64,000 bases of DNA, from positions 17,521 through 81,520 of the forward strand of contig MKUZ01000030.1 in NCBI GenBank assembly GCA_001899065.1, given 5' to 3'. Source of the DNA: Devosia sp. 66-22 (GTDB lineage Bacteria; Pseudomonadota; Alphaproteobacteria; Rhizobiales; Devosiaceae). Numbering within the stretch: position 1 is the first letter of the stretch; each line of letters begins with the position of its first letter. The notes under the pieces were generated by a model. It saw only the letters and a program-made list of their open reading frames with translations. It searched no databases and was not told the DNA's origin. This document shows, one piece after another, positions 21,997 through 54,591 of this stretch. The position numbers and the translations under genes are program-made.

Positions 21997-22007
21997 TTAT
22001 CATATAT
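21997..22007. promoter_or_regulatory. Operator-like AT-rich motif TTATCATATAT
   Basis: One-base variant of the TTATCATATAA motif found at 39370 and 43325. It lies in the 99-bp divergent region between the binding-protein gene (minus) and the SDR gene (plus), where the DNA is sharply AT-rich compared with its surroundings. On the minus strand it overlaps a TATGAT/GATAAT -10-like stretch. Confidence 0.5.
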
Positions 22008-22039
22008 CAACATCTGCTTTCGTATATGAGAGTCACTCA

Positions 22040-22846
22040 GTGACAAGCCTCGATGGAAAGATCGCGATCGTCACCGGCGCCGGGCGCGGCCTTGGACGGC
22101 GGGCCGCGCTGCGGCTGGCGGCGTTGGGTGCCGATGTGGCGCTGGTGGCGCGGAGTGCGCCGCAATTGCAGGAGACCGCCGCCGCCATTGCCGGAACGGG
22201 CCGCCGCGCGGCGGTGCTGCCCATCGATCTCGCCCGCGAGCTCTCGCCCGATGTCATTCGCGGCACAGTGGAAGGCGCCGTCGGGCGCCCGGATATTCTG
22301 GTCAACGCGGCCGGCGTCTCCGGTCCCCTGGCGCTCGTCAGGGACGGCGATCCCGCCGCGTGGATCGAGACCATGACGGTCAACATGGTGAGCCACTACG
22401 TGACCTGCCGCGCCTTCGTGGGCGGTATGATCGATGCCGGCTGGGGCCGCATCGTCAATGTGTCATCAGCCGCCGCGCTGCTGCCGCCCGGCCCGATCGA
22501 CAGCGCCTATGCGACGAGCAAGGCGGCGCTCAACCACTTCACGCGCCACCTTGCCTCAGAGCTCGAGGGCACGGGCGTCACCGCTAACGTCATGCACCCC
22601 GGCGACGTGCGGACCGAGATGTGGGCCGACATCCGCGACAGCGTCGCGGGCCTCGGCCCCGAGGCCGCGCCCTATCGACAGTGGGTCGACTGGGTCGCAG
22701 CGACCGGCGGCGACGACCCCGACAAGGCCGCCGACCTCATCGCCCACCTCGTGAGCCCGGAAGCGGCGGCGATCAACGGCCAGTTCCTGTGGATCGAGGA
22801 CGGTATCCGACCGCCGACGCCGAGCTGGCCGGCCAGTCCGGCTTAG
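22040..22846 (+). CDS. SDR family oxidoreductase
   Basis: 268-residue classical short-chain dehydrogenase. The NAD(P) motif is TGAGRGLG near the N-terminus, the NAAG-type motif is VNAAG, the catalytic Ser is in VNVSSAAA and the active pair is YATSK. The usual C-terminal strand is replaced by a somewhat divergent FLWIEDGIRPPTPSW tail. The start is GTG at 22040; no in-frame ATG fits. Divergent from the importer operon and 70 bp upstream of a halogenase homologue on the same strand. Substrate unknown. Confidence 0.87.
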   Translation: MTSLDGKIAIVTGAGRGLGRRAALRLAALGADVALVARSAPQLQETAAAIAGTGRRAAVLPIDLARELSPDVIRGTVEGAVGRPDILVNAAGVSGPLALVRDGDPAAWIETMTVNMVSHYVTCRAFVGGMIDAGWGRIVNVSSAAALLPPGPIDSAYATSKAALNHFTRHLASELEGTGVTANVMHPGDVRTEMWADIRDSVAGLGPEAAPYRQWVDWVAATGGDDPDKAADLIAHLVSPEAAAINGQFLWIEDGIRPPTPSWPASPA

Positions 22847-22916
22847 GAAACCGGACCTCTCGAGGGTTGCGGCGGCCGGGGCGGCGGGAGACGCTGCGCG
22901 GAGGGGGAGCGGAGCG

Positions 22917-24455
22917 ATGCCATCGCGTTTCGTGATCGTGGGCGGCGGGACGGCGGGCTGGATCACCGCCTTTATCGTGCAGGACGCGGTTCGGCGGCTG
23001 CGGCTCGACGCCAGCGTAACCGTGGTCGAACCGTCGAGGATTCCGACCGTTGGCGTGGGCGAGGCGACGACCGCGGCGTTCTACGTCTTCCTCAAGAGCT
23101 TCGGCATCGACGAGTTCGAATTCTTCCAGCAGACCGGCGCGACGTTCAAGCTGGGGATCCGGCACGAGGACTGGCGCCGCAAGGGCTTCACCTATTACGG
23201 CCCGATCGACGACCCGCACCAGGTGGTCGCGCCACCGCAGGGAGCACCATCGGACTACCTCAATGTCTATGCCATCGCCGCCGGCCGGCCGATCGAGGAC
23301 ATGCACATGTTCGGGCCGCTGCTCCGGCAGTGGAAGGCGCCTTACGCCCTCAAGGCAGACGGCACGCCGATCCGCCTCGGGCCGTTCATGCATGCCTATC
23401 ATTTCGACCAGGCGCTGGTCGGTCGGTTCCTCGCGGGCAAGTCGAAAGGCGTCACCATCGCCGACGGCGTCGTCGCCGGCGTCGAGCGCGACCAGGTCAA
23501 TGGCGACATCCGGACGCTGGTGCTCGATACCGGCGAGCGCGTCGAGGGCGACTTCTTCTTCGACTGCTCGGGCTTCCACAAGCGGCTGATCGTCAAGGAG
23601 CTCAACGCCCCCTGGATCAGCTATGCACATGAGTTGCCGGTCAATCGCGCCTTGCCGTTCTGGCTCGACATCAAGGACGGCGAGGAGATCCCCAACTACA
23701 CGCGCGCCTGGGCGCAGGAAGCGGGCTGGATGTGGCAGATCCCGACCCAGACGCGTTTCGGCTGCGGCTATGTCTATTCCGACGAGTTCCGCACGCCCGA
23801 AGAGGCCAAGCTCGAAGTCGAGCGCGTCCTCGGCCGCGAGATCGAAGTGCGCAGCGATATCCGCTTCCAGATCGGCCGCCTCGAAAAGGCATGGATCGGC
23901 AACACCGTCGCCGTGGGGCTGAGCTCGAGCTTCCTCGAGCCGCTGGAGTCGACGTCGATCCACGGCACGATCGTGCAGATGATGCTGTTCGCGCGGCGCT
24001 TCCTCAAGGCACCGCAGGCCATGACCGACGACGACCGCGCCGACTACAACCGGCGCGTAGGCCGGCAGGTCGACGACTTCCGCACCTTCGTCAACACGCA
24101 CTACATGACCGAGCGCGACGACACGCCCTTCTGGCGGGAAGTGCGCGAGCACCGCATTCATCCGGAAACGAAGGAGCGGCTGGCGCGCTGGCAGAAGGAA
24201 ATGCCGCGCATGACGCACTTCCCCGACGATCTCGACGGGCTGCCGCATGTGCAGACGCAGCTGCACTATCCGGTGCTCGAGGGCCTGGGCCTGCTCAACC
24301 AGGATACGGCACGCGCCGAGATGGCACTCGACCCCAAGCTGCGACAGTTCGCGCGCGACACCTATGAGTCGCTGGTGCGCGAGTATCGCGATGCCGCCAG
24401 ACAGGCACTCGGGCACGCCCAGTACCTGCAACTGGTGCGCGAGATGAAGCTCTGA
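22917..24455 (+). CDS. Flavin-dependent tryptophan halogenase family protein
   Basis: 512-residue homologue of PrnA/RebH-type halogenases. The FAD motif is VGGGTAGW (residues 8-15). Lys78 in ATFKLGIRHEDW matches the catalytic Lys that conducts HOCl. The family hallmark W-x-W-x-I-P is present as GWMWQIP (Trp271, Trp273), and the FLEPLESTS segment (340-347) holds the Glu expected near the indole nitrogen. These residues predict real halogenating ability with FADH2 from a separate flavin reductase, which is not nearby. Many family members in sugar-using bacteria sit beside transporters and have unknown substrates, so the true role may differ from tryptophan chlorination. It converges with melA with no bases between. 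Confidence 0.9.
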   Translation: MPSRFVIVGGGTAGWITAFIVQDAVRRLRLDASVTVVEPSRIPTVGVGEATTAAFYVFLKSFGIDEFEFFQQTGATFKLGIRHEDWRRKGFTYYGPIDDPHQVVAPPQGAPSDYLNVYAIAAGRPIEDMHMFGPLLRQWKAPYALKADGTPIRLGPFMHAYHFDQALVGRFLAGKSKGVTIADGVVAGVERDQVNGDIRTLVLDTGERVEGDFFFDCSGFHKRLIVKELNAPWISYAHELPVNRALPFWLDIKDGEEIPNYTRAWAQEAGWMWQIPTQTRFGCGYVYSDEFRTPEEAKLEVERVLGREIEVRSDIRFQIGRLEKAWIGNTVAVGLSSSFLEPLESTSIHGTIVQMMLFARRFLKAPQAMTDDDRADYNRRVGRQVDDFRTFVNTHYMTERDDTPFWREVREHRIHPETKERLARWQKEMPRMTHFPDDLDGLPHVQTQLHYPVLEGLGLLNQDTARAEMALDPKLRQFARDTYESLVREYRDAARQALGHAQYLQLVREMKL

Positions 24456-25826
24456 CTATTCCGCCGCGATCTTGTTCCCCACCCGCGCCCATTCGGGCAG
24501 CCACTGATCATGCGCGACCAGCAGATCGTCGACCAGTGCCCAGATCTGGTCGAGGTCGAGCTCGGCGCCGGTATGGGGGTCCATCATCGCCGCGTGGTAG
24601 ATGTGCTCGCGGTTCTCGGTCAGCAGCGCCTGGACCGTCAGTTCCTGCACGTTGATGTTGGTGCGGATCAGCGCGGTGAGCTGCGGCGGCAGATCGCCGA
24701 CATAGGTCGGCTGGATGCCGTTGTGATCGACGAGACACGGCACCTCCACGGCGCAGCCATCGGGCAGCGACGTGATCAGCCCATCGTTGCGCACATTGCC
24801 GTAGATGACGCTCGGCTGGCCGGTCCAGCGCGAGTTCATGATCTCGGAGGCATACTCATGGCTCTCCCGGATCTCGACGGTGTTGGCCGTCTTGTAGCGT
24901 TCGGCTTCGGCCTTCCAGCGCGCGATCTGCTCGATGCAGCGCTTGGGATACTCATCGAGTGGGATCGAGAATTTCTCGATCAGGTCCTCGCGGCCTTCCT
25001 TGATGAACCACGGCACGTATTCGGCGAAGTGCTCGGAGCTTTCGGTGACGAAGTAGCCCAGTCGCGTCATCATCTCGTAGCGCACCTTGTTGGGGCAGCG
25101 CGGGTTCCAGTGGTTCTTGCGCGGGAAGCGGCCCTCGCGATAGCCGGCATGCAGCTCGGGATAGAGGTCGCGCGTCGTGCCGTCGGGCAGCTCCTGCTCG
25201 AACTTGAGGTAGAACGCCATGTGGTTGATGCCGGCGGCCTTGTAGCGCATCTGCGAGACGGGGATGCCGAGGTCGCGGCTGAGCTCGTTCGCCGTGCCCT
25301 GCACCGAATGGCAGAGGCCGACCTGCCTGATGGTGGGGTACTTCGCCGCGATGGCCCAGGTGTTGATCGCCATCGGGTTGACATATTGCAGCATGATCGC
25401 CTCGGGACACACCGCGAGCATGTCCTCGCAGATGCTCCACAAATGCGGCACGGTGCGGATGCCGCGCATGATGCCGCCGATCCCGAGCGTATCGGCGATG
25501 GTCTGGCGCAGGCCGAACTTTTTGGGCACCTCGAAGTCGGTGATGGTACAGGGGTCGTAGCCGCCGATCTGGAAGCAGACGACGACAAAGTCCGCGCCCT
25601 CCAGCGCACGGCGCTGGTCGGCGAAGGTCTCGATCGTCGCCTTGGTGCCCAGCGTCTGGACCAGCTTGCCGGCGATGACCGCGCTCTCCTCGAGCCGCTG
25701 CGGGTTGATGTCCATCAGCGCGATCCGCGCATCGGCCAGCGCCGGCCGCTGCAGCACGTCGCCGACGATGTTCTTCATGAACACGGTCGAGCCGGCGCCG
25801 ATGAAGGTGATCTTGGGGTTAGGCAT
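24456..25826 (-). CDS. melA: Alpha-galactosidase, glycoside hydrolase family 4
   Basis: 456-residue GH4 enzyme that hydrolyses alpha-galactosides such as melibiose and raffinose through an NAD+ and Mn2+-dependent oxidation-elimination mechanism. The N-terminal Rossmann segment is KITFIGAGSTVF; metal ligands of the family are Cys172 in LCHSVQG and His202 in GINHMAF. Cytoplasmic, no signal peptide. It lies 29 bp downstream of the double ATPase and closes the agp-type importer operon, as in Sinorhizobium alpha-galactoside utilisation. It was preferred over alpha-glucosidase or alpha-glucuronidase GH4 members because of the Agp context and the CHSVQG motif. Confidence 0.9.
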   Translation of the reverse strand: MPNPKITFIGAGSTVFMKNIVGDVLQRPALADARIALMDINPQRLEESAVIAGKLVQTLGTKATIETFADQRRALEGADFVVVCFQIGGYDPCTITDFEVPKKFGLRQTIADTLGIGGIMRGIRTVPHLWSICEDMLAVCPEAIMLQYVNPMAINTWAIAAKYPTIRQVGLCHSVQGTANELSRDLGIPVSQMRYKAAGINHMAFYLKFEQELPDGTTRDLYPELHAGYREGRFPRKNHWNPRCPNKVRYEMMTRLGYFVTESSEHFAEYVPWFIKEGREDLIEKFSIPLDEYPKRCIEQIARWKAEAERYKTANTVEIRESHEYASEIMNSRWTGQPSVIYGNVRNDGLITSLPDGCAVEVPCLVDHNGIQPTYVGDLPPQLTALIRTNINVQELTVQALLTENREHIYHAAMMDPHTGAELDLDQIWALVDDLLVAHDQWLPEWARVGNKIAAE

Positions 25827-31885: not shown

Positions 31886-31967
31886 AACCTTCCACGCCGG
31901 CAAAACGTAGCGCTTGCCCTCCTGCCAACAATCCCATTATCTTACAAATCAGTTCCGGGTTCTAAAG

Positions 31968-40812: not shown

Positions 40813-41681
40813 ATGACGATCGCGCCGCGGCGTCGGCCTACCTTGCGCCCGCCTTCGCGCTTGTCGCCATCTTCATCTGCCTGCCCATCGCGCTCACGCT
40901 GTGGATGTCGCTCAACGAGGTCGACCAGTTCGGCCGCTTCGGCGGCTTCGTCGGTCTTGGGCACTACCTCGCGCTGTTCTCCGATCCGCAGTTCATCGCC
41001 GCCGCGTGGCGCACCGTGATCTGGACCGTCAGCATCGTCGCCGCCACCACCGTGATCGCCCTGTTCCTCGCCGTCGTGCTGCAGCAGAAGTTCCGCGGCC
41101 GGGCGCTGGTGCGGGGCCTCCTGCTCCTGCCCTGGGCCACCGGTCTCGTCATCGTCAGCCTGCTCTGGCGCTGGATGGCGCATCCCGATTTCGGCGCCAT
41201 CGGCCGTGTGGTGAACGCCATCGGGTTCCCGGCGCTGCGCGTCGAGTGGCTGGGCAATCCCGCGCTCGCCTTCCCGCTGATGATCTGGGTGGGCATCTGG
41301 GCGTCGATCCCGTTCACCACGCTGGTGCTCGCCGCCGGCATCCAGTCGATCGACACCGATCTCTACGAAGCCGCGACGCTCGACGGCGCGAGCCAGTGGC
41401 GGCTGTTCCGCGACATCACGCTGCCGCAGCTTCGTCCGGTGCTCGCCGTGTCGATCCTGCTCAACGTGATCTTCGTGTTCAATTCCTTCCCCATCATCTG
41501 GGTGATGACGGAGGGCGGCCCGGCGGGCGCCACCGACACGCTGATCACCTTCCTCTATCGCAAGGGCTTCCGCTTCTACGATATGGGCGCCGCCTCGGCG
41601 ACCTCGGTGGTGGTCTTCGCGATCCTCCTCGGCTTTGCCATCCTTCACACGCGCATCATGTGGCGGAACGTGCTCCGATGA
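40813..41681 (+). CDS. Carbohydrate ABC transporter permease, MalF type, probable frame break near its start
   Basis: CUT1 permease of about 290 residues. The body is intact: YLAPAFALVAIFICLPIALTLW begins the first membrane segment (split here as YLAPAFALVAIF and ICLPIALTLW), and the EAA motif is YEAATLDGASQWRLFRDITLP. No usable start exists in this frame before the first membrane segment except GTG 40698 inside a hairpin. ATG 40813 (MTIAPR) in the neighbouring frame gives a natural N-terminus if one base is missing near 40820-40832. I therefore place the start there and suspect a frameshift or sequence error. It ends four bases into the next gene. Confidence 0.75.
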
Positions 41682-43276: not shown

Positions 43277-43304
43277 GGCGATAGCAATATCGGGGCTTTT
43301 TGGA

Positions 43305-43335
43305 TTGACAAGCTGCGATCTTATTTATCATATAA
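43305..43335 (+). promoter_or_regulatory. Promoter and AT-rich operator upstream of sugar importer
   Basis: TTGACA (43305-43310) is followed after 17-18 bp by a TCATAT/CATATA stretch. TTATCATATAA lies at 43325-43335 within a longer imperfect palindrome (TTATTTATCATATAATAAG). Located in the 93-bp region between the GntR gene and the ATPase gene, so it may serve both. Confidence 0.65.
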
Positions 43336-43369
43336 TAAGAAAATCACAACTGAGCATGAGGAACGGGCG

Positions 43370-44932
43370 GTGGAAAGCGGCAGGCAGGCGGTGCAGGAGG
43401 GGGCGGATACAGTCGTGCTGTCGATGGGCGGCATCTCCAAGCGCTACCCCGGCGTCGTCGCGCTCGACGACGTCGCGCTCACGCTCCGGCGTGGTGAGGT
43501 CCATGGCCTGGTGAGCGAAAACGGCGCCGGAAAATCGACGCTCATCAAGATTCTGGCCGGCGCGATCCACGCCGATAGCGGCGAGATCGTCATCGCCGGC
43601 CGCGCCGTCGATCACCCCACCCCGGCCGAGATGCACGACTACGGCATCGCCGTCATCTACCAGGAGCTGATGCTGGCGCCGCATCTCACGGTGGCCGAGA
43701 ATCTGTTCCTTGGACGGCTCCCCCGCGGACCGCTTGGCATCATCGACTGGCGCGCGGCACACCGGCAGGCCGGCGAGCTCATGGACCGGCTCGGTTTCCG
43801 TGTCGATCCTGCCGCCCGTCTCGACCAGCTCAGCGTGGCACAGCGGCAGATGGTCGAGATCGCGTCGGCCCTCTCGCGCAATGCCCGCATCGTCGTGCTC
43901 GATGAGCCCTCCGCGGTGCTCGGCGGGTCCGAGCTCGAGCGGCTGTTCGAGATTATCCGCCGCCTCTCGGCGCAGGGCGTGAGCTTCATCTACATCTCGC
44001 ACCGGCTGAGCGAGGTCTTCGCCATCTGCGACAATGTCACGGTGCTGCGCGACGGCCGTCGGGTCGGCAGCCGTCCCATCGGCGAGGTCGATCCGGAGAG
44101 CCTGATCTCCATGATGGTGGGGCGCACCCTGGCCGACATCTATCCGGCGCGTCGCCGCGGCATCGGTGCTCCGGTCCTGTCCGTGCGCGGCCTCAATCGC
44201 CCGCGTGTTCTGCACGGCATCGACCTCGATGTGCGGGCCGGGGAGATTCTGGGCATTTGTGGCCTCGCCGGTTCGGGGCGCACCGAGCTGCTGCGCGCCC
44301 TGATGGGCGCCGACCGCGCCGCCGCGAGCACCTACACGCTGCGCGGCCGCGAGCGCCGCATCGCAACGCCCGCCGCGGCCATCCGCGAGCGCATGTGCCT
44401 GTTGCCGGAGGACCGCAAGACCCAGGGCTGCTTCCTGCCGCAGAGCGTCGCCTTCAACATGACGATCGCGCGCCTCGGCAAGATCAGCCGCGGGGGAATG
44501 CTGAGCCACGCCACCGAGCGACGGATCGCGACCCGCCTCGTACAGCGGCTCAAGGTCCGCACCCCGGGCCCCGATGCGCTCGTGCACCAGCTTTCGGGCG
44601 GCAACCAGCAGAAATGTCTCATCGCCCGCAGCCTCAATGCCGAATGCGATATCCTGCTGATCGACGAGCCCACACGCGGCGTCGATGTCGGCGCCAAGCG
44701 CGAGATCTACGAACTGCTCGCGCAGCTCGCCGACGAGGAGCACGCCGCCATCGTCATGGTCTCGTCCGAGCTGCCCGAAATCCTCGGCCTCTCCGATCGC
44801 ATCCTGGTGATGCGCGACGGCCGCATCGCCGGCCGTTTCGAGCGCGACGAGGCCACCGAGGAAAAGCTCATGGCGGCGGCTATCGGCGCTGGCCGTCCGG
44901 CGCGGGAGGAGGCTGTCCATGCGGCGCTATGA
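43370..44932 (+). CDS. Sugar ABC transporter ATPase, two domains (RbsA/MglA type)
   Basis: 520-residue ATPase with two nucleotide-binding domains. Domain 1 has an altered Walker A, SENGAGKS (from residue 49), where the usual first Gly is Ser; VVLDEPSAVLGG replaces the common DEPTAAL form. Domain 2 has the degenerate CGLAGSGRTE P-loop normal for this family, LSGGNQQK and LLIDEPTRGVDVG. Start is GTG at 43370, eight bases after GAGG; an ATG at 43421 or nearby would cut family sequence. It overlaps the aldehyde dehydrogenase gene by 14 bases. Part of an importer with the genes at 46397 and 47449. Confidence 0.88.
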   Translation: MESGRQAVQEGADTVVLSMGGISKRYPGVVALDDVALTLRRGEVHGLVSENGAGKSTLIKILAGAIHADSGEIVIAGRAVDHPTPAEMHDYGIAVIYQELMLAPHLTVAENLFLGRLPRGPLGIIDWRAAHRQAGELMDRLGFRVDPAARLDQLSVAQRQMVEIASALSRNARIVVLDEPSAVLGGSELERLFEIIRRLSAQGVSFIYISHRLSEVFAICDNVTVLRDGRRVGSRPIGEVDPESLISMMVGRTLADIYPARRRGIGAPVLSVRGLNRPRVLHGIDLDVRAGEILGICGLAGSGRTELLRALMGADRAAASTYTLRGRERRIATPAAAIRERMCLLPEDRKTQGCFLPQSVAFNMTIARLGKISRGGMLSHATERRIATRLVQRLKVRTPGPDALVHQLSGGNQQKCLIARSLNAECDILLIDEPTRGVDVGAKREIYELLAQLADEEHAAIVMVSSELPEILGLSDRILVMRDGRIAGRFERDEATEEKLMAAAIGAGRPAREEAVHAAL

Positions 44933-46400
44933 TCACTTCATCGGCGGCGCGTCCTGCGTCCCCTCGAGCGGCAAGCTGATCGACCGCTTCTCGCCCGCCA
45001 CGGGCGCCCTTGTCGCGGTCTTCGCCGCGGGGAACGCCCGCGACGTCGATACCGCCGTGCTCGCGGCGCGCACCGCCTTCGACGAGGGCCCGTGGTCGCG
45101 GCTGAGCGGCATCGACCGCTCGCGCCTGCTGCGCGCCTTTGCCGAGCTGATGCTCGCCAATCTTGGGCGGCTCGCCCAGATCGAATCCGACGAGGTCGGC
45201 AAGCCCATTCGCTATGCCCGCAAGGATATCGAGGGCGGTGCCAAGGTCGTCCACTACGCCGCGGGCCTTGCCGCCGATCTCCACGGCATTGCCTATCCGT
45301 CCCTGAGGCCGGGACAGACCGGTCTCGTCATGCGTGAGCCGGCCGGCGTGGTGGGCGCCATCATCCCGTGGAACTTCCCGGCCTTCGTGTTCTGCCACAA
45401 GGTGCCGTTCGCGCTCGCCGCGGGCTGTACCGTGGTGGTCAAGCCCTCCGAGTTCACTTCGGGTACCGCGCTCGAGTTGGCGCGGCTCGCTCTTGAGGCC
45501 GGCATCCCGCCCGGCGTCGTCAACGTCGTCACCGGCTACGGCGCCGAGGCAGGCGACGCCCTCGTCAGTCATCCCGGCGTCGACATGGTGAGCTTCACCG
45601 GCTCCACCGCTACCGGCCGCAAGGTGATGCAGGCGGCTATCGCCACCACCAAGCGCGTGTCGCTCGAACTGGGCGGCAAAGGCGCCAATATCGTCTTCGC
45701 CGACGCCGATATCGACGATGCGCTCGACGGCACGCTCTTCGGGGTCTTCCACAATTCCGGCCAGGTCTGCAGCGCCGGCACGCGCCTCATCATCGACGAG
45801 GCGATCGCCGACGGCTTCCTCGCGCGGCTGAAGCAGGCAATCGGCGGCATCCGCATCGGCGATCCGGCCGATGAAGCAACCGACATGGGCTCGCTCATTC
45901 ATGCTCCGGCGCTCGATCGGGTCCGTGCCTATGTCGACGGCAGCGCGGCCGAGGGCGTCGTCACCTATGCCGGCGGTCATCGCTTGAGCGGCGGGCTCTA
46001 CGACAAGGGCAGCTTCTTCGCACCCACCATACTCGACCGCGTCACCCCCTTCGTGCGCGCGCACCGCGAGGAAATCTTCGGGCCCGTGCTGACGGTCACC
46101 CGCTTCCGCTCCACCGAGGAAGCCGTCGCGCTCGCCAACGACACCAGCTACGGCCTCGCCAATGCGCTGTGGAGCCGCGACCTCGACAAGGTGATGGGCG
46201 TTTCTGCGGCCCTGCGCAGCGGCGTCGTGTGGGTCAACACCACGCTCGACGGCTCGCCGCAGATGCCCTTCGGCGGCCGCCAGCAATCTGGCTTCGGCCG
46301 CGAGTTCGGCCGCGCCGGGCTCGAAGAATTCACCGAGATCAAATCGATCTTCCTCTCCACCGGCCGTCGCGCGCCGGAATTCTATGGACGCACGCCATGA
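44919..46400 (+). CDS. Aldehyde dehydrogenase family protein
   Basis: 493-residue NAD(P)+-dependent aldehyde dehydrogenase. Conserved residues are Asn152 (PWNFP), Glu250 in LELGGKG and the nucleophile Cys284 in GQVCSAG. Cytoplasmic. It lies between the ATPase and permease genes, overlapping both by 4-14 bases, so its substrate very likely derives from the imported compound. Substrate class (semialdehyde, betaine-type or sugar-derived aldehyde) cannot be fixed. A second aldehyde dehydrogenase lies at 57745. Confidence 0.92.
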   Translation: MRRYDHFIGGASCVPSSGKLIDRFSPATGALVAVFAAGNARDVDTAVLAARTAFDEGPWSRLSGIDRSRLLRAFAELMLANLGRLAQIESDEVGKPIRYARKDIEGGAKVVHYAAGLAADLHGIAYPSLRPGQTGLVMREPAGVVGAIIPWNFPAFVFCHKVPFALAAGCTVVVKPSEFTSGTALELARLALEAGIPPGVVNVVTGYGAEAGDALVSHPGVDMVSFTGSTATGRKVMQAAIATTKRVSLELGGKGANIVFADADIDDALDGTLFGVFHNSGQVCSAGTRLIIDEAIADGFLARLKQAIGGIRIGDPADEATDMGSLIHAPALDRVRAYVDGSAAEGVVTYAGGHRLSGGLYDKGSFFAPTILDRVTPFVRAHREEIFGPVLTVTRFRSTEEAVALANDTSYGLANALWSRDLDKVMGVSAALRSGVVWVNTTLDGSPQMPFGGRQQSGFGREFGRAGLEEFTEIKSIFLSTGRRAPEFYGRTP

Positions 46401-47401
46401 CCGACCATGCCGCCCGCTCGGCCTCGCCGCCGGCACCGACCCTGCTGTCCCGCCTCAGGCGTCTGGGCGCGCTCCGCGCCTCCGGCCTCATCTGGGTGCT
46501 GCTGCTCATGATCATCGTCGCGGTGATCTACAAGCCCACCTTCATCAATCCGTCCAACCTCGTCAGCGTCGCCCGGCAAACCGCTCTCTTCGGCATCGTC
46601 GCCATCGGCATGACGATGGTGATCCTCACCGCCGGCATCGATCTGAGCGTCGGCTCGATCGTCGCGGTGGCCGGCGTTGTCTGCGCCACCATGCTCGATG
46701 CGGGCATGCCGATCTGGTCGGTGGTCATCGTCGGCCTGCTGATCGGCGCGACGCTGGGGGCCATCAACGGCATCGTCATCGTCATCGGCCGCGTGCCGCC
46801 CTTCATCATGACGCTGGGCATGATGGTCATCGGCCGCGGCCTCGCCATGACAATATCGGGCGGCCACCCCGTGCACTTCCGCGAAGCGGCGGAGTCGTTC
46901 GCCTGGCTGGGGCAGGGCTTCCTGCTCGGCCTGCCGGTGCCGGTGTGGGTGTTCCTGCTCGTCGCCGCCAGCGCCTTCTTCGTGCTGCGCTACACGCCCT
47001 TCGGCCGCAACATCTATGCGGTGGGGTCCAATCCGGAAGCCGCGCGGCTCTCGGGTATCAATGTCGGCGCCACCATCTTCGGCGTCTATCTGATCTCGGG
47101 CTTTCTCGCCGGCCTCACCGCCCTCGTGATGATCTCGCGCCTCACCGTCGGCGAGCCGGTGCTCGCCACCGGCCTCGAGCTCGAGGCCATCGCCATGACG
47201 GTCATCGGCGGCACCTCGCTGTTCGGCGGCGAGGGCGGCGTGATCGGCACGATCCTGGGCGCCGCCATCGTCACCGTGCTCGCCAACATGCTCAACCTGT
47301 TCGGCGTCTCGCCCTTCACCCAGCAGATCGTCAAAGGCTTCATCATCGTCGCCGCGGTGCTCTTCGAGACCTACCGGCGCAACCGCAATTCCGCGAAGTA
47401 G
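46397..47401 (+). CDS. Ribose-type ABC transporter permease
   Basis: 334-residue RbsC-family permease, about eight to ten membrane segments. Typical stretches are NLVSVARQTALFGIVAIGMT, LTAGIDLSVGSIVAVAG, PPFIMTLGMMVIGRGLA, YTPFGRNIYAVGSNPEAARLSGI (split for length) and GGTSLFGGEGG. ATGA overlap with the aldehyde dehydrogenase gene. Part of the importer of 43370-48396. Confidence 0.92.
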   Translation: MTDHAARSASPPAPTLLSRLRRLGALRASGLIWVLLLMIIVAVIYKPTFINPSNLVSVARQTALFGIVAIGMTMVILTAGIDLSVGSIVAVAGVVCATMLDAGMPIWSVVIVGLLIGATLGAINGIVIVIGRVPPFIMTLGMMVIGRGLAMTISGGHPVHFREAAESFAWLGQGFLLGLPVPVWVFLLVAASAFFVLRYTPFGRNIYAVGSNPEAARLSGINVGATIFGVYLISGFLAGLTALVMISRLTVGEPVLATGLELEAIAMTVIGGTSLFGGEGGVIGTILGAAIVTVLANMLNLFGVSPFTQQIVKGFIIVAAVLFETYRRNRNSAK

Positions 47402-47448
47402 CGGAACGGACGGGACCGCAAAAACCCGTCACCATCAAGGAGGAACTA

Positions 47449-48396
47449 ATGAACACTCTAGGTAGAACCGTGCTGGTCCTGACGGCCGCGGCCCTGCTCG
47501 CGGGTACCGCATCCGTCCCCACCATCGCGCAGGACAAGGTCAAGATCGGCTTCTCGCAGGGCACCATGGAAAGCTCGTGGCGCGTCAACATGGTCGAGCG
47601 CAACAAGAAGTGGTTCGACGAGAACATCGCCGACAAGGCCGAGCTGACAATCACCAATGCCGAGAACAATGCGAGCAAGCAGGTGACCGATGTCGAGGGC
47701 CTGCTCGCCTCGGGCATCGAGATCCTCGTGATCTCGCCCGTCACCGCCGATGCGCTCACCCCCGTGGTCAAGCAGGCCATGGATGCGGGCGTCAAGGTGC
47801 TCACCCTCGACCGCTCGGTCAATACGCCGGTGACCAGCCATATCGGCGCCGACAATATCCTCATCGGCAATACCGCCGGCAAGTTTGTGTGCGAGCTGCT
47901 GGGCGGCGAGGGGACCGTTGGCGAGATCCAGGGCGTCGCCGGCGCCTCGGCCACGGTGGACCGCCACGATGCCTTCAACGCCACCATCGCCAAGGAATGC
48001 CCCGGCGTGAAGGTGGTGGCCGACGGCATCGGCGACTATGTCCGCGAGCCGGCCATGCGCCTCACCGAAGACTGGATCCAGCGCTTCCCCGAAGGCGAGC
48101 TCGACGTGATCTACGCCCACAATGACGGCATGGCGCTCGGCGCCGTCGCCGCGCTCGAAGCCGCCGGCCGCCTCGACGACGTCAAGGTGGTGGGCATCGA
48201 TGGAGAGGAAGCCGCCTACCAGGCCATCAAGGATGGCAAGATGGCCGCGACCTTCACCTACCACTTCGTCGCGCCCGAAGGCATGATGTACGCCTGGGAC
48301 ATCGCGCAGGGGAAGACGCTCGACGCCAAGATCGTCCTGCCCACCGCACAGATCGACGCCACCAATGTCGATGAGTTCCTCGGGACCGGCTTCTAG
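47449..48396 (+). CDS. Ribose-type ABC substrate-binding protein
   Basis: 315-residue periplasmic binding protein (Peripla_BP_4). Signal peptide to about residue 28 (SVPTIAQDK). The body begins KIGFSQGTMESSWRVNMVE and includes LDRSVNTPVTSHIGADN and YAHNDGMALGAVAALEAAG, in the style of RbsB-like proteins. AAGGAGGAACTA precedes the ATG. Unusually the binding protein is last in the operon (ATPase, dehydrogenase, permease, binding protein). Confidence 0.92.
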   Translation: MNTLGRTVLVLTAAALLAGTASVPTIAQDKVKIGFSQGTMESSWRVNMVERNKKWFDENIADKAELTITNAENNASKQVTDVEGLLASGIEILVISPVTADALTPVVKQAMDAGVKVLTLDRSVNTPVTSHIGADNILIGNTAGKFVCELLGGEGTVGEIQGVAGASATVDRHDAFNATIAKECPGVKVVADGIGDYVREPAMRLTEDWIQRFPEGELDVIYAHNDGMALGAVAALEAAGRLDDVKVVGIDGEEAAYQAIKDGKMAATFTYHFVAPEGMMYAWDIAQGKTLDAKIVLPTAQIDATNVDEFLGTGF

Positions 48397-48435
48397 GTCA
48401 TCCCGCAGTTTGCCCGTCCCCCCGGTCGGGCGGAA

Positions 48436-48497
48436 CGGACGCAAAGCCCGAAATCGAAGGTTCCCTGTTCTCCCCTTCCACTCGGGTTTTGCGTCCG
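48436..48497. repeat. Long-loop inverted repeat after the importer operon
   Basis: CGGACGCAAAGCCCGA (48436-48451) and TCGGGTTTTGCGTCCG (48482-48497) pair over 16 bp with one G-T wobble and a 30-nt loop. It lies between the binding-protein stop and the next operator, and could be a terminator for the importer operon or a regulatory structure. Confidence 0.6.
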
Positions 48498-48502
48498 ACT
48501 AA

Positions 48503-48514
48503 TAATCATATTAA
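48503..48514. promoter_or_regulatory. Operator-like AT-rich motif TAATCATATTAA
   Basis: Variant of TTATCATATAA, followed by AACGATAATACG, in the short gap before the D-threonine-aldolase-like gene at 48543. AT-rich island in otherwise GC-rich DNA. Confidence 0.5.
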
Positions 48515-48542
48515 ACGATAATACGAATCACCGGAGTAGCCC

Positions 48543-49601
48543 ATGCGTGTCGAAGACCTCGATACCCCGTCCGTCGTCATCCATCTGGACCGGCTCGAGG
48601 CCAACATCGCACGCGTCCAGTCCATGGTCGATGCGCGCGGCATCGCCAACCGCCCGCACGTCAAGACCCACAAGATTCCTGCCGTCGGCCGGATGCAGAT
48701 CGAGGCCGGCGCCGTCGGGCTCACCTGCCAGAAGCTGGGCGAGGTCGAGGCCTTCGTCCGCGCCGGCGTCTGCGACGATATCCTGCTCAGCTTCAACATC
48801 GTGGGCGAGCGCAAGACCGACCGGCTGATGGAACTGTCTGCATCGCTGCGCCGGCTTGCCGTCGTCGCCGACAACGAGGAGGTGATCGACGGCCTCGACG
48901 CCGCGGGGCGCCGCCACGGCCGCGACATCCCGCTGCTCATCGAGTGCGACACCGGCTTCGGCCGCAACGGCGCCACCACGCCCGAGCGCGTCCTCGAGCT
49001 CGCCCGCCACGCCGCGCGCAAGCCGAACATCCGGCTCGACGGCATCATGACCTTCCCCAATCAGGCACCGGCCACCAACAGCTTCGTCGAGCGGTCGCTG
49101 CACCTGCTCGAGGCCGCCGGCCTGCCCATCGCCATCATCTCGGGCGGCGGCACGTCGGCGCTGCTCACCATGGCCGACTTCCCGCTCATGACCGAGCATC
49201 GCGCCGGCACCTATGTCTATAACGACGTGATGATGATGGCCGCGGGTTTTGCCAGCCTCGACCAGTGCGCCATGCATGTGCGCACCACAGTCGTCTCCAC
49301 CCCGACCGCTGATCGCGTCGTCGTCGACGCCGGCTCCAAGGTGCTCACCCATGAGCGCTATTACGTCGAGAATTTCGGTGCCGTCGTCGAATACCCCGAC
49401 GCCATCGTCGAGCGCCTCTCGGAGGAGCACGGCGTCCTCGACGTCTCGCGCTCGGCCCGCAAGCCGAAAGTCGGCGAAGTGCTGAGCATCATCCCCAATC
49501 ATTGCTGCGTCGTCTCCAATATGGTCGACGAGGTGTTCGGCGTTCGCGACGGCATCGTCGAAGTCGAATGGCCGGTCGCGGCGCGGGGTGCCACCAGATG
49601 A
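48543..49601 (+). CDS. D-threonine aldolase-like/alanine racemase-fold PLP enzyme
   Basis: 352-residue fold-type III PLP protein. Lys41 in HVKTHKIP is the expected Schiff-base residue and PNHCC (His320, Cys322) the metal-binding pair near the C-terminus. Relatives are D-threonine aldolase, D-3-hydroxyaspartate aldolase and D-serine dehydratase. CCGGAG lies upstream of the ATG. Second such gene in the window (other at 16301-17428), each beside a ribose-type importer. It is followed by an SDR with 10 bp between. Likely cleaves or dehydrates a beta-hydroxy-D-amino acid. Confidence 0.88.
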
Positions 49602-49611
49602 GGACATGACA

Positions 49612-50385
49612 ATGAACGATCTTCCCAGCTTCGCTCTCGCGGGCAGGACCGCGCTCGTCACCGGTGCCGCGCGCGGCCTCGGCCGGGCCATCGCGCTGGC
49701 GCTTGCCAATGCCGGCGCCGATATCGCGCTCGGCCTGCGCGATCGGGCGAGCGCCGCCGATCTGGTCGCCGACATCGAAGCGATGGGTCGCCGTGCGTTC
49801 CCCCTGCAGATGGATGTGCGGAAGCTGCCCGAGGCCTACGCCGCGATCGATGCCGCCATCGGCGGACTCGGCGGCATCGACATCCTCGTCAACAATGTCG
49901 GCGGCGGCACCGAGGGGCCCATCGAGGACTTCACCGAGGCCGAGTTCGACGACACCATCACGCTCAACGTCAAGGCGAGCTTCTTCATTGCGCAGCGCGT
50001 CGCAAAGCACATGAGCGCCACCGGCAAAGGCGGCAGCATCGTCAATATGAGCTCGCAGGCCGGCTTCATCGCGCTCCCCAATGAGGCCATCTACTGCCTC
50101 TCCAAGGCGGCCGTCGCCCACATGACAAAATGCATGGCCGTCGAGTGGGGCAGGTACGGCATCACCGTCAACGCCGTCGCCCCCACCTTCATCGAGACCG
50201 ATGGCACCGCCGATGCGCTCGGCCGCCCCGGCTTCCGCGACGACGTCGTCGAGCGCATCGCCGCGCTGCACCGCGTCGGCCAGCCGCGCGAGGTCAGCGG
50301 CGCCGTCGCCTTCCTCGTGTCCCCCGCCGCGTCGCTGATCACCGGCCAGACCCTCATCATCGACGGCGGCTGGACCGCTCGCTGA
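49612..50385 (+). CDS. SDR family oxidoreductase
   Basis: 257-residue classical short-chain dehydrogenase. Cofactor motif [16 protein letters not shown] in place of NNAG, Ser in VNMSSQAG, active pair YCLSK, and C-terminal [12 protein letters not shown]. The ATG at 49612 is chosen because GAGG lies eight bases before it; the ATG at 49606 is too close to that site. Follows the PLP enzyme gene and likely acts on the same pathway. Confidence 0.9.
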
Positions 50386-50407
50386 CGGTAACGCTCAATA
50401 AATCTGT

Positions 50408-50418
50408 TTATATGATAA
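50408..50418. promoter_or_regulatory. Operator-like AT-rich motif TTATATGATAA
   Basis: Exact reverse complement of TTATCATATAA, 25 bp upstream of the chemoreceptor start. The flanks extend the match (TTTATATGATAAAT). It includes a TATGAT -10-like hexamer at 50411-50416. Confidence 0.58.
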
Positions 50419-50442
50419 ATAAGGAGAACGACGGAGGCTGCG

Positions 50443-52367
50443 ATGATCAGGCGGATATGGGCGCGGATGCGGAGCATCAGGTTTCCGGCCCTCTCGCTGC
50501 GCTACAAGATCCTCGCGCCCTTCGCTGCTCTGCTGCTTCTCGCCATCGTCGCCGCCGCATGGATCTCCGCAACCGCGGTCCTCAGTTTCGGCCAGGCCAA
50601 TATCGCCGTCGGCAATGCTCTCATCACCATCCACCACGCGCGCGAGATTCGGATCGCGTCGAACGAGGCGCGCACGCTTGTCGATCGCAATCTGCGCGGT
50701 GCCGCGCGGGACGATCTGAACGCGCTGTTTCTTGACCGCATGACGCGCCTCCAGGCCGCGGTCGATGGCCTCAAGGGCTCGGCCGCCGCCTACGCGCTGC
50801 GCGAGAAGGCGGCGCTGGTCGAGTTCACGGCGCGTGACTGGCAGCAGTTTGCCCGGGCCGCGCTGGGTCTTCCGTCGCGCGAAAGCAACGATCCCGTCAC
50901 GCTCGACAGGCGCGCCGCCGAGCTCGACGCCGTCATCGCAGAGGTCGAGGCTATGGCCGACGCCGAGGCGCTCGACCGGCTCGCGGCGGAAGCGGCGGCC
51001 TTCCGCGCCGACCTCGTCGGCATCGCCGCTATCCTCGGCGGCGTCATGCTGCTCGCGGCGATCTCGGGCAGCATCAGCACCATCGGTACCACCAGTGCCC
51101 TGTTGCGCATGACGCGCCGCATGCGCGACCTCGCGTCCGGCGATCTCGCGGCGCCCATCGGCGGCCTCGCACGCCGCGACGAGGTGGGCGCGATGGCGCG
51201 TGCCCTGCAGGTGTTCCGCGATGCGCTGGACGAGCGGCGCGGCCTCGAAGCGGCGCGGCAGGAGTCGATGCACAGCCAGACCCGACGCGCCGAAGCCCTC
51301 GCCGGCTTCCAGCACGAGCTCGCCGACATTGTCGACCAGGCGGCAATGGGGGACTTCTCGCGCCGTCTCGACCTGTCCGCCGTGGGCAGCGAGTTCGGCG
51401 CCTTCGCCGACCGCGTCAACACGCTGCTCGAAACGGTCGCCGGCGGTATCGGCGAGACCGGCCGCGTGCTTGCGGCTCTGGCCGAGGCGGACCTCACTCA
51501 TCGCGTCGAAGGCGACTATGACGGCGTTTTTGACGACCTCAAGGCGAGCACCAACGCCGTCGCGTCCAAGCTCGGCGACATTCTCGCCGGTCTGCGCGCG
51601 ACATCGACTGCCCTCCGCATCGCCACCGGCGAGATCCTGGCCGGCGCCGGCGATCTCAGCGAGCACACCACACGGCAGGCTGCCACCATCGAGGAGACGG
51701 CCGCCGCGATGGCGCAGCTTTCGGGCACCGTGCTCGCCAATGCCGGACGCGCCAGGGATGCCTCCGAGGTCGCCGCCGCGGTGGCAGGCGCGGCAGAGGA
51801 GGGCGGCCAGGTGATGGTGCGCGCCACCCAGGCGATGGAGCGCATCACCGCGTCCTCGGGCAAGATCTCGAACATCATCGGTATGATCGACGACATCGCC
51901 TTCCGACCAATCTGCTCGCGCTCAATGCCTCGGTGGAGGCGGCGCGAGCCGGGGAAGCGGGCAAGGGCTTTGCCGTCGTCGCGGTCGAAGTGCGCCGCCT
52001 CGCGCAATCGGCGGCCCAGGCCTCGTCCGAGGTCAAGGCGCTGATCGAGCAGAGCAGTACCGATGTGCGCGGCGGTTCGCGCCTCGTCGCCGAGGCCGCG
52101 ACGCGGCTCGAGGCGATGCTGGGCAAGGCGCGCATGTCCAGCGAGCTCATGGACGCCATTGCGCGTGCCAGTCGCGAGCAGGCGTCCGCCATCGAGGAGG
52201 TCGACGCGGCCGTCCGCGCGATGGACGAGATGACCCAGCACAATGCCGCGCTCGTCGAGCAGACCAACGCCTCCATCGAGCAGACCGAGCGGCAGGCCGG
52301 TGAGCTCGATCGCATCGTCGCCGTGTTTCGCATCGAGAGCGGACAGGGCGCTGCCCACGCTGCTTGA
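50443..52367 (+). pseudogene. Methyl-accepting chemotaxis protein, frameshifted
   Basis: A chemoreceptor of about 640 residues when two frames are joined. Membrane segments lie at roughly residues 25-47 and 191-211, enclosing a helical periplasmic sensor; a HAMP domain follows (about 212-264), then a second HAMP-like unit (about 320-380) and the signalling helices. The frame breaks between 51904 and 51905 inside the most conserved receptor segment: IDDIAF should continue [18 protein letters not shown], which appears in the next frame as if one A had been lost from a CAG codon. The C-terminal part then runs to 52367. If real, the receptor lacks its signalling tip. Own AT-rich operator upstream, within a catabolic cluster. 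Confidence 0.85.
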
Positions 52368-52398
52368 CTCCGCTCTCATCTATCATTTTATATGATAA
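52364..52398 (+). promoter_or_regulatory. Promoter and AT-rich operator before aminotransferase
   Basis: TTGACT (52364-52369), then TTTATA after 17 bp (52387-52392), form a plausible promoter. TTATATGATAA (52388-52398) overlaps the -10 element; the flanks repeat TTTATATGATAAATAAG seen at 50407. Confidence 0.65.
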
Positions 52399-52417
52399 AT
52401 AAGAGACGGAGGCACCT

Positions 52418-53779
52418 ATGCTCGATCTGGCGCAACGCGATATCGCCGCGCATCTACACTCGCAGACAAATCCCACCCAGTTCGAGGCGAACGGCCCGCT
52501 CGTCGTCACGCGCGGACATGGCGTCTACATCACCGATGCCGACGGCAAGCGCTACATCGATGCGATGGCGGGCCTCTGGTGCGCCTCGCTGGGCTTCACC
52601 CATCCGCGCGTGGCCGCGGCGGCCGAGAGGCAATACTCCGAGCTTGGCTTCTACCACACCTTCTTCAACCGCACGCTGCCCAAGGCCACCGAGCTTGCCG
52701 AAAAGCTCGTCGCGCTCACCGGAATGACAGGCGGCAAGGCCTACTTCGCCACCTCCGGCTCCGAGGCCAACGAGACAATGGTCAAGCTCGCCTGGGTCTA
52801 CCACAGCACGCGCGGCAAGCCGGGCAAGCGTAAGGTCATTGCCCGCGACCGCTCGTTCCATGGCTCCACCATCGTCGCTGCCTCGATGTGCGGCCTCGAC
52901 TTCATGCATCGCGAGTTCGGGTTGCCGCTGCCAGGCTTTCTCCACACCCCGGCGCCCTACCTCTACCGCGACGGTCTGCCCGGTGAGACCGAGGATGCCT
53001 TCGTCGCGCGGCTCATGGCCGAGCTCGAGGCGCTGATCCTGCGCGAGGGGCCCGACACCATCGCGGCCTTCATCGCCGAGCCGATCCATGCCGGCGGCGG
53101 CATCATCGTGCCGCCCGCGAGCTATTTCCCCGAAGTCCACAAGCTGCTGAGCAAATACGACATTCTCGCCCTCGCCGACGAGATCGTGTGCGGCTTCGGC
53201 CGCACCGGCAGCTGGTTCGGCAAGGACACCACGAACTACGCGCCCGACATGATGGCGCTCGCCAAGGGATTGTCGGCCGGTCACTTCCCCATCTCGGCGG
53301 TGGTGATGAGCGCGCCCGTCTACGAGGCGGTCAAGGCGTTCAACAGCGCCGGCGGCAATTTCGGCCACGGCTTCACCAACTCCGGTCACCCGGTCGGCCT
53401 CGCGATCGCCCTCGAAGTGATCCGCATCTACGAGGAGATGGATGTCGTCACCCATGCGTGGACCATGGGCGCGCGCCTCGTCGGCCACTTCCACGAGCTC
53501 GCCAATGAGTTCGACATCATCGGCGACATCCGGGGCGAGGGGCTGATGCTAGGCATCGAGCTGGTGGCCGACCGCGAAACCCGCACGCCCTTCGAACCCG
53601 CGCTCAAGGCCGGCATGGCGTTCGACCGCCTCGCTTATGCCAATGGGCTCATCGGCCGCTGCATGGGAGACACGCTCGGCTTCTCGCCGCCGCTCATCGT
53701 GGGCACGGCCGAGGTCGACGAGATCGCCGACAAGACGCGCACCAGCCTCAAACAACTCACCAGGCATCTGGGCCGATAG
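52418..53779 (+). CDS. Class III aminotransferase
   Basis: 453-residue PLP-dependent omega-type aminotransferase. Conserved parts are GLWCASLGFTHP near residue 53, TSGSEANET (112-120), Asp254 in LADEIVCGFGRTGSWFG and the Schiff-base Lys283 in MALAKGLSAG. Relatives use beta-alanine, putrescine, 4-aminobutyrate or similar amines with pyruvate or 2-oxoglutarate. It is followed ten bases later by an SDR gene. Together with aldehyde dehydrogenases nearby it could turn an amine into an aldehyde and then an acid. Confidence 0.9.
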   Translation: MLDLAQRDIAAHLHSQTNPTQFEANGPLVVTRGHGVYITDADGKRYIDAMAGLWCASLGFTHPRVAAAAERQYSELGFYHTFFNRTLPKATELAEKLVALTGMTGGKAYFATSGSEANETMVKLAWVYHSTRGKPGKRKVIARDRSFHGSTIVAASMCGLDFMHREFGLPLPGFLHTPAPYLYRDGLPGETEDAFVARLMAELEALILREGPDTIAAFIAEPIHAGGGIIVPPASYFPEVHKLLSKYDILALADEIVCGFGRTGSWFGKDTTNYAPDMMALAKGLSAGHFPISAVVMSAPVYEAVKAFNSAGGNFGHGFTNSGHPVGLAIALEVIRIYEEMDVVTHAWTMGARLVGHFHELANEFDIIGDIRGEGLMLGIELVADRETRTPFEPALKAGMAFDRLAYANGLIGRCMGDTLGFSPPLIVGTAEVDEIADKTRTSLKQLTRHLGR

Positions 53780-53789
53780 GAGAGACGCG

Positions 53790-54575
53790 ATGAATCTCGG
53801 ACTCAAGGGCCGGACGGCCATCGTCACCGGCGCCAGCGTCGGCATCGGCCTCGCCATCGCCGAAGGGCTCGCGGCAGAGGGGACCAACCTCATCCTCGCG
53901 GCCCGCGGCGGCGAGCGCATGGCCGCTGAATGCAGCCGTATCGCCGGCACCTTCGGCGTCACCGCCACGCCGGTCGCGGCCGACGTCGCAACCGAAGCGG
54001 GCGTCGCCGCCATCGTCGATGCCGCAAAGGCTGCTGGCGTCGACATCCTCGTCAATAATGCCGGCACCGGATCGGGCGAAACCGTGCTCGACGCGCCCGA
54101 TGCCAAATGGGACCAGTACTGGGACCTCCACGTCAAGGCCGCCGTGCGGCTTGCCCGCGGCGTCCATCCGTTGATGAAGGCGCGGGGCGGCGGCGTGATC
54201 CTCCACAACGCCTCCATCTGCGCCACCCAGCCGCTCTGGTACGAGCCGGTCTACAACGTCTCCAAGGCGGCGCTGCTGATGTTCTCCAAGACCCTCAGCT
54301 ACGAGTTCATCAAGGACAATATCCGCGTCAACACCGTCAATGCCGGCCTGATCCTCACACCGGACTGGATCAAGACCGCCAAGCAGCTGACGGCCGCCAG
54401 CGGTGGCGACTACGAGGCCTATCTGCAGAAGGTCGCCGACGACTTCGCGCCCATCCGCCGCTTCGGCACGCCCGAGGAAGCGGCCAATCTGTTCGTCTTC
54501 CTCGCCTCCGCGCGGGCCTCCTACTGCGTCGGCTCCACCTACTATGTGGACGGCGGCATGCTCCGGACCATCTAG
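53790..54575 (+). CDS. SDR family oxidoreductase
   Basis: 261-residue short-chain dehydrogenase. Cofactor motif TGASVGIG, VNNAGTGSG, active pair YNVSK, and C-terminal VGSTYYVDGGML. The catalytic Ser position reads HNASICATQ, compatible with an active enzyme. AGGAGAGACGCG precedes the ATG. Second gene after the aminotransferase; partner substrate unknown. Confidence 0.88.
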   Translation: MNLGLKGRTAIVTGASVGIGLAIAEGLAAEGTNLILAARGGERMAAECSRIAGTFGVTATPVAADVATEAGVAAIVDAAKAAGVDILVNNAGTGSGETVLDAPDAKWDQYWDLHVKAAVRLARGVHPLMKARGGGVILHNASICATQPLWYEPVYNVSKAALLMFSKTLSYEFIKDNIRVNTVNAGLILTPDWIKTAKQLTAASGGDYEAYLQKVADDFAPIRRFGTPEEAANLFVFLASARASYCVGSTYYVDGGMLRTI

Positions 54576-54577
54576 AA

Positions 54578-54591
54578 TATAATCAGATAAT
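54578..54591. promoter_or_regulatory. Weak AT-rich operator-like motif upstream of importer
   Basis: TATAATCAGATAAT resembles the shared motif with CAG in place of CAT, like the site at 36629. It lies three bases after the SDR stop and about 120 bp before the importer at 54711. Confidence 0.35.

Follow-up and report, generated by a model that had tools for sequence, protein, structure and literature searches.

A shared AT-rich palindrome and its putative GntR-type repressor in a 64-kb stretch of Devosia sp. 66-22

Does a short AT-rich repeat that recurs between the genes of a Devosia locus serve as the operator of one regulator and, if so, which regulator and for which compound? The locus lies in a 64,000-base stretch of the genome of Devosia sp. 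66-22, here called the window (contig C30:17521–81520, 1.5% of the 4,355,070 bases of the genome). The original prediction took the repeat as one operator shared by a chemoreceptor, importers, an aminotransferase, a D-threonine-aldolase-like enzyme and short-chain dehydrogenases/reductases (SDRs), with a DgoR-like GntR protein encoded at 42524–43276 as its best regulator. Our sequence comparisons support this pairing. We put at about 0.77 the probability that the 42524–43276 protein is an autoregulated FadR/DgoR-type repressor of six promoters through one operator, and probably of three more; this figure excludes the identity of the substrate. One repressor appears to tie the chemoreceptor, sugar-type importers and pyridoxal phosphate (PLP) enzymes into a single uptake-and-breakdown system.

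Occurrence of the repeat in the window and in the genome

The candidate operator is a 15-bp palindrome, ATTTAT-N3-ATAAAT, and had been described by the 11-mer TTATCATATAA. A scan of the window confirmed the four exact copies of the 11-mer, at 39370 and 43325 on the forward strand and at 50408 and 52388 on the reverse strand. The near and weak variants are also present, with one mismatch at 21997 and two at 36630, 48503 and 54580, although 36630 and 54580 had been given as 36629 and 54578. With up to two mismatches allowed, the window holds 11 sites against 0.70 expected, and the maximum across 100 shuffles was 5. All four exact copies in the whole 4.36-Mb genome are inside the window. With up to one mismatch, five of the seven genomic sites are in the window and the reversed-pattern control has none; with up to two mismatches, the window holds 11 of 47 (binomial P 7e-11) and the reversed pattern occurs 28 times. 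These densities are not an unbiased test because the 11-mer was picked from the window itself. A looser core, TTAT-N3-ATAA with one mismatch allowed, showed no enrichment across the genome (59 per strand versus 68 for the reversed pattern), and the perfect core occurs only at the four places of the exact 11-mer.

We therefore rely on a scan with a matrix that was trained without the window and for this reason provides an unbiased test. The matrix came from the best 80 of 147 relatives of the 42524–43276 protein found by peptide patterns (36.8–44.5% identity), mostly from Sphingomonas and its relatives, with Microbulbifer, Shewanella, Steroidobacter and others. After removal of 15 near-duplicates, 65 non-redundant upstream regions were used for training. 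De novo palindromic motif discovery with 40 restarts returned ATTTAT-(A/C)-N-(G/T)-ATAAAT with a log-likelihood of 466, compared with 20–26 in five shuffled sets with 10 restarts each. In the window the matrix ranked 52385 (23.0), 50405 (22.1), 43322 (21.0), 36627 (19.5), 48500 (16.7) and 39367 (16.1) highest. Thus, six of the eight sites claimed earlier are the six best in the window, all with scores of at least 16. Two sites had been called weak; this holds for 54577 (11.0), but the one at 36627 ranks fourth. The remaining scores were 12.2 at 31934, 11.5 at 39375 (overlapping 39367), 10.5 at 21994 and 8.3 at 50397 (overlapping 50405), and no further site in the whole window scored 6 or more. 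As a comparison, 400 kb of the Devosia genome, taken as twenty 20-kb pieces picked by hand at nearly equal GC content, contained no site at or above 14, one at or above 12 and two at or above 10, with a best score of 12.3. First-order simulated DNA of 3 Mb contained one site at or above 16. Together, these data agree with the claim that such recurrence is unlikely by chance. Two places outside the window are doubtful as operators: C6:100136 scores 10.0 and lies between an EAL/CHASE4 gene and a gene weakly similar to ATP-binding cassette (ABC) ATPases, and C31:303090 has no matrix score above 6.

The regulator and its relatives

The protein encoded at 42524–43276 on the reverse strand has an N-terminal GntR winged helix (Pfam, 1.4e-16, 60.3 bits against a cut-off of 27) and a C-terminal FCD domain (1.4e-27, 97.0 bits against 24.3), the layout of the FadR subfamily. 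Its nearest solved structure is 7c7e (6.8e-34), which is Escherichia coli DgoR (PMC7674646). The two closest orthologs found, in genomes G013 (63 to 64% identity) and G278 (55 to 58%), each have an exact copy of the 11-mer about 50–60 bases before their own gntR. In G013 the regulator gene, the operator, a D-threonine aldolase (D-TA) family gene and a RidA gene are contiguous, with the operator separating gntR from the D-TA/RidA pair. A FastTree tree placed the window protein with G013 and G278 in one clade (support 0.997) within a clade of 83 members (support 0.998), and among the members of the larger clade listed the upstream score was at least 14 in 14 of 14. No plasmid copy of the regulator was found at E ≤ 1e-50; there were 175 distant records at 1e-30, and the one of these examined has no D-TA gene annotated beside the regulator.

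The motif also recurs near gntR in more distant loci. Across 93 homolog loci (L009–L101), the 11-mer near gntR was exact in 4, had one mismatch in 17, two in 27 and at least three in 45. Thus, 21 of the 93 were within one mismatch, compared with 1.0% of 1400 segments drawn at random from these loci, and 48 were within two, compared with 3.7%; by class, these control segments gave 0.07% exact, 0.9% with one mismatch and 2.7% with two. The upstream matrix score reached 14 in 66 of the 80 homolog regions, a count that is circular because the matrix was trained on 65 of those regions. A DgoK homolog was present in 54 of the 80 homolog loci, and at least one relative of eight sugar-acid or glycan query proteins in 68. 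The scans of the other loci used wrong frames for two proteins, the MalE-type one (39420) and a permease (37602), whose absence there is uninformative. These comparisons support the idea that the putative operator extends beyond this genome and is common to this GntR clade, whose members in Sphingomonas, Microbulbifer and Shewanella records are found close to genes for sugar acids. Additional sites of the form TATATATCNNATAAAW turn up repeatedly at a distance from gntR in loci of Sphingomonas and Sphingopyxis (for example L056 12885, L065 12879 and L041 16673), and therefore local regulons with several sites may be general across the clade.

Four other regulators are encoded in the window, and one of them might use the operator instead: a GntR/FCD protein at 9280, a LacI protein at 59248, an AraC-type protein at 31980 or an IclR protein at 14286. 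The AraC-type gene does have the score-12 site upstream, but no site of at least 6 lies near the other three. The phylogenetic footprint tracks the 42524–43276 protein, and a paralog in the same genome (C31:72590, 41% identity) has no operator-type site upstream. We consider control by one of these four very unlikely. Pairing of the 42524–43276 protein with the shared operator is well supported by comparison, with binding itself putative. From the 11-mers of the orthologs, the footprint in the clade, the lack of sites near the regulators at 9280, 59248 and 14286 and the paralog without a site, we conclude that this protein is the likely regulator of the operator and would repress its own gene.

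Several results weigh against this conclusion. Among the 12 homologs L010–L021, which come from the same genus, family or order and include the paralog, just two had an upstream score of at least 14. Close orthologs proved rare. Apart from the protein of the window itself, G278 alone was found at E ≤ 1e-55 in 397 genomes of the order, 385 genomes of the class gave no close ortholog, and among 61 relatives at E ≤ 1e-40 only G013 was close (63%), with the other matches at 37–44%; in these searches only some of the first-look candidates were scored. The 50 kb around gntR of G278 contain no D-TA gene. In G105, G262 and G367 the D-TA/RidA pair is without a good operator in 19.9 kb (best scores 8.4, 8.4 and 7.2), and in the window itself the RidA and D-TA genes are 9.2 kb apart in separate units.

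Gene units, promoters and a possible mechanism

Genes were assigned to operons by gene order and are on the forward strand unless stated otherwise. The operator at 43322–43338, which contains an exact 11-mer, lies between gntR and an Rbs/Ara-type importer operon at 43370–48396 (ATPase 43370–44932, permease 46397–47401, binding protein about 47452–48396) that also encodes an aldehyde dehydrogenase (44919–46400). The operator at 39367–39383 is upstream of a MalE/MalF/MalG-type importer at 39418–42523 (39418–40674, 40743–41681 and about 41678–42523). The operator at 36627–36643 separates a divergent MalE-type binding protein gene (35302–36555) from a unit at 36711–39332. This unit begins with an amino-acid-type ABC importer (36711–38939), which consists of a binding protein (36711–37553) and two permeases (37477–38271, start not set, and 38268–38939) and in which no ATPase gene was seen. 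It ends with a RidA-family imine/enamine deaminase (38949–39332; TIGR00004 below cut-off) that is 76.8% identical to RidA of a Rhizobium D-TA locus. The operator at 48500–48516 is upstream of a D-TA-family fold-type III PLP enzyme (48543–49601) and a GolD/DthD-like SDR (49612–50385, below cut-off). The operator at 50405–50421 precedes a chemoreceptor with a HAMP domain (50443–52367). The chemoreceptor frame breaks near 51900, where the first 486 codons end in the methyl-accepting chemotaxis protein (MCP) signal domain and the remainder continues in another frame to 52367; this may be a pseudogene or an assembly error. The operator at 52385–52401 is upstream of a class III aminotransferase (52418–53779, over the cut-off of NCBIfam PRK06105) and an SDR (53790–54575). 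All the gene kinds named in the original prediction thus lie downstream of sites.

The three weakest sites are probable operators. The one at 54577–54593, in a score range where the 400-kb control holds two sites, is before a second MalE/F/G-type importer with a second aldehyde dehydrogenase (54711–59253; dehydrogenase at 57745–59253). The one at 21994–22010, with one mismatch, has on one side a reverse-strand unit (16301–21940) and on the other an SDR gene followed by a tryptophan-halogenase-family gene (22040–24455). The reverse-strand unit comprises an Rbs-type ABC importer (19086–21940; ATPase by similarity, permease and binding protein), a D-aminoacylase/OngB-superfamily amidohydrolase (17425–19026) and a second D-TA-family enzyme (16301–17425, start not set). 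The third, at 31934–31950, is a possible extra operator not named earlier that precedes the AraC-type gene.

As had been noted, the sites are close to starts; the distance to the start codon is 16–71 bases, except at 54577, where the choice of start makes it 6 or 117. Several had also been said to cover the -10 element. This is plausible, since TTGAC occurs within 40 bases upstream of four of the six strong sites (36627, 39367, 43322 and 52385), spaced such that the operator would fall on the spacer or the -10 region, which fits repression by occlusion. By contrast, a strict scan of 36000–55500 found one match versus 2.4 expected and gave no support for strict sigma-70 promoters, another point against the proposed repressor. 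The upstream TTGAC and the TATAA within the motif could also mean that the repeats are merely AT-rich -10 promoter elements. However, promoters are everywhere whereas the exact copies are confined to the window, and the 15-bp palindrome follows one regulator clade across records that, from their names, we take to be alpha- and gammaproteobacterial. We rejected this explanation as scarcely credible, given that the motif is restricted to the present locus.

Regulators of the FadR subfamily bind short palindromes as dimers, and a ligand in the FCD domain alters DNA binding. By analogy with this family, a dimer of the GntR/FCD protein would bind ATTTAT-N3-ATAAAT at the six strong sites, and probably also at 21994, 31934 and 54577. 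The operator would overlap the promoter and block RNA polymerase until a small-molecule effector releases the repressor. The regulated set would include at least three ABC importers, the chemoreceptor, the D-TA-family enzyme, RidA, the class III aminotransferase, SDRs and aldehyde dehydrogenase.

Effector and substrate

The likeness to DgoR extends from the domain architecture to the 4-3-4 geometry of the operator. The IR1 operator of DgoR contains TTGT-AGT-ACAA (PMC12288454), whereas the half-sites here are TTAT/ATAA. For the helix-turn-helix (HTH) position that might bear on this difference we used FadR numbering, which we assume locates it correctly. The residue is Ala here and Ala in E. 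coli DgoR too, and it explains nothing about TTAT versus TTGT. A correlation of this HTH position with G or C in the operator has been described (PMC4494728). D146, H150, H195 and the ligand residue R102 of DgoR are conserved in the window protein. By contrast, W181 is replaced by Arg and T191 by Phe, and the effector loop is shorter; this comparison depends on the alignment, in which R179 pairs with Arg or Ile and HMMER places a gap at W181. R102, W181, T191 and R224 are reported to be essential for galactonate (PMC7674646), and R224 is outside the segment aligned. Residue 181 is Asn in 76 of the 93 fetched homologs, a third pattern. Because the operator is kept while W181, T191 and the loop are changed, operator recognition seems to be common to the clade and the effector probably differs from galactonate. 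A D-galactonate regulon would fit with DgoR as the nearest solved structure and with the frequency of DgoK in the homolog loci. It is nevertheless very unlikely given the two replaced residues, and unlike a dgo locus the window has no homolog of DgoK or of an EDD-type dehydratase; the only DGOK-family match in the genome is on contig C9.

Other GntR-type systems resemble this one in part. Operators of the FadR subfamily are AT-rich palindromes with TKGT/ACMA boxes and a spacer that is usually 3 (PMC4494728); the spacer here is also 3, the boxes are TTAT/ATAA and G has a frequency of 0.13 at the variable position of the matrix. BioR, a regulator of biotin genes in the GntR/FadR family, has the site TTATMKATAA (PMC4494728) and thus the same half-sites, but its spacer is 2 and that of the four exact window copies is 3; the matrix was built so that its centre is always odd. 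AraR-II, a GntR-type arabinose regulator of Shewanella, is predicted to act on most operons of the ara locus (PMC2996990), likewise a local regulon of several operons that includes an ABC importer of Ytf/Rbs type. This type of operator is also found with the Shewanella homologs of the window protein. None of those fetched was recognized as AraR-II, and the loci L023, L029 and L035 differ in carrying DgoK, SDR and SMP-30 homologs.

For the substrate we turned to the two D-TA-family enzymes, which are 31% identical to each other. The nearest solved relatives of the 48543–49601 enzyme are D-threonine and D-3-hydroxyaspartate aldolases, and the best matches of the 16301–17425 enzyme are D-threo-3-hydroxyaspartate dehydratase (2.5e-45) and D-threonine aldolase (8.8e-44). 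A serine dehydratase with a His-x-Cys metal motif, where the aldolase has His and Asp, has been described (PMC4401734). Both window enzymes have His-x-Cys (NHCC at 48543, by alignment, and NHVC at 16301). The earlier label of D-threonine-aldolase-like therefore stands for the family, but the predicted metal motif of the 48543 enzyme is of the dehydratase type.

In all six other loci opened, a RidA gene lies either next to the D-TA gene or about 2.1 kb away. It is adjacent to the orthologs of the 48543 enzyme in G013, G105, G262 and G367 (61–64%). Two closely related Rhizobium plasmid records, examined from 390 with a D-TA relative, have a relative at 48–49% identity and, about 2.1 kb away, a RidA 77% identical to that of the window. 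These six loci represent about four lineages, because G105 closely resembles G262 and the two Rhizobium records also form a close pair. In G367 an RpiR-type regulator, D-TA and RidA follow one another and an Rbs-type importer lies about 5 kb further along, an arrangement that recalls the ong cluster of Pseudoalteromonas (OngB, OngC, OngD, KdgK and OngR; PMC9537276). In that cluster 2-amino-2-deoxy-D-gluconate is converted to 2-keto-3-deoxygluconate (KDG) by the deaminase OngC, a PLP enzyme of fold type III, and OngD, which belongs to the RidA family, is required in vivo (PMC9537276). KdgK and a KDG-6-P aldolase are further parts of the ong pathway. The window likewise has a fold-type III PLP enzyme and RidA, the former set beside OngC by the description of OngC as related to D-serine deaminase and D-threonine aldolase. 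It also has a D-aminoacylase-like hydrolase, the 17425–19026 amidohydrolase, which matches the PpOngB structure 9kb1 at 1.7e-72, and a seven-bladed lactonase (15219) adjoins this region. The regulator is of GntR type here and of RpiR type in ong, and the importers are ABC here and SSS in ong.

The His-x-Cys motif, the linkage to RidA, the ong precedent, the OngB-superfamily amidohydrolase and the lactonase slightly favor an amino-sugar acid over a D-beta-hydroxy-amino acid. Our tentative candidate, by analogy with ong, is a 2-amino-2-deoxy-aldonate or a close amino-sugar acid, from which the D-TA-family enzyme, together with RidA, would remove the amino group to give a 2-keto-3-deoxy acid. Two results count against this candidate. 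The metal site of PpOngB is Cys/His/His with Cys97 as a zinc ligand (PMC12017989), and the window amidohydrolase has Asp in place of this Cys. In addition, the window contains no homolog of DgoK, EDD or the two DHDPS-family queries; KDG kinase was not sought.

With the same regulator and operator, the substrate could instead be a D-beta-hydroxy or D-amino acid, which we regard as possible though doubtful. The D-TA-family enzyme would then be a dehydratase or aldolase of D-serine, D-threonine or D-3-hydroxyaspartate, RidA would clear the enamine, and the aminotransferase, SDRs and aldehyde dehydrogenases would process the skeleton. The nearest relatives of both D-TA-family enzymes and the amino-acid-type importer at one strong site are consistent with this, and OngC is reported to accept D-serine and D-threonine as well (PMC9537276). 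However, the importers mostly belong to carbohydrate types (Rbs/Ara and MalEFG), sugar-acid or glycan query relatives are found in most of the homolog loci (68 of 80), and both Rhizobium D-TA loci carry RpiR and ugpC-type sugar ABC genes.

Returning to the amino-sugar acid, we suggest with considerable doubt that this is an alphaproteobacterial system that senses, imports and deaminates 2-amino-2-deoxy-aldonates in parallel to the marine ong system, with a DgoR-type repressor that has kept the operator of its clade, has a changed effector pocket and also controls a dedicated chemoreceptor. If so, deamination of the glucosaminate type, together with a chemotaxis receptor of its own, would here be under a regulator class unlike that of ong. 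As a kind, FadR-type local regulons for sugar acids are known; the gene set appears new and the effector probably so. We found no published description of this regulon in a search that did not extend to RegPrecise or most subscription papers, and no paper found in the literature search joined glucosaminate dehydratase to threonine aldolase. Among the titles listed of papers that contain the operator string, none concerns a regulator. The comparison turns a motif spotted by eye into a testable regulator–operator pair, and offers a case where a GntR clade retains one operator grammar while its effector loop and the pathway under its control vary.

Several neighboring genes were also noted. The reverse-strand run at 14286–21940 encodes the IclR regulator, the seven-bladed lactonase, the second D-TA-family enzyme, the D-aminoacylase-like amidohydrolase and the Rbs-type importer. 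The tryptophan-halogenase-family protein behind the SDR (22917–24455; Pfam 1.4e-108) has homologs in 7 of the 80 gntR loci. A second GntR/FCD regulator (9280–10053), with no such operator nearby, may control Ldh_2, FAA-hydrolase and amidohydrolase genes at 10572–13959. The gene at 4885–5682, far from any operator, encodes a protein homologous to the SMP-30/gluconolactonase found at the gntR locus of Microbulbifer (31.9%, 1.8e-38). An amino-sugar-like set adjoins the regulon at 59248–63175, with the LacI regulator, a SIS sugar-isomerase-domain protein that exceeds the PRK02947 cut-off and a NagA-like deacetylase that does not reach its cut-off. Finally, a glycoside hydrolase family 4 (GH4) enzyme on the reverse strand (24456–25826) is over the NCBIfam alpha-galactosidase cut-off and has oligopeptide-type ABC genes beside it.

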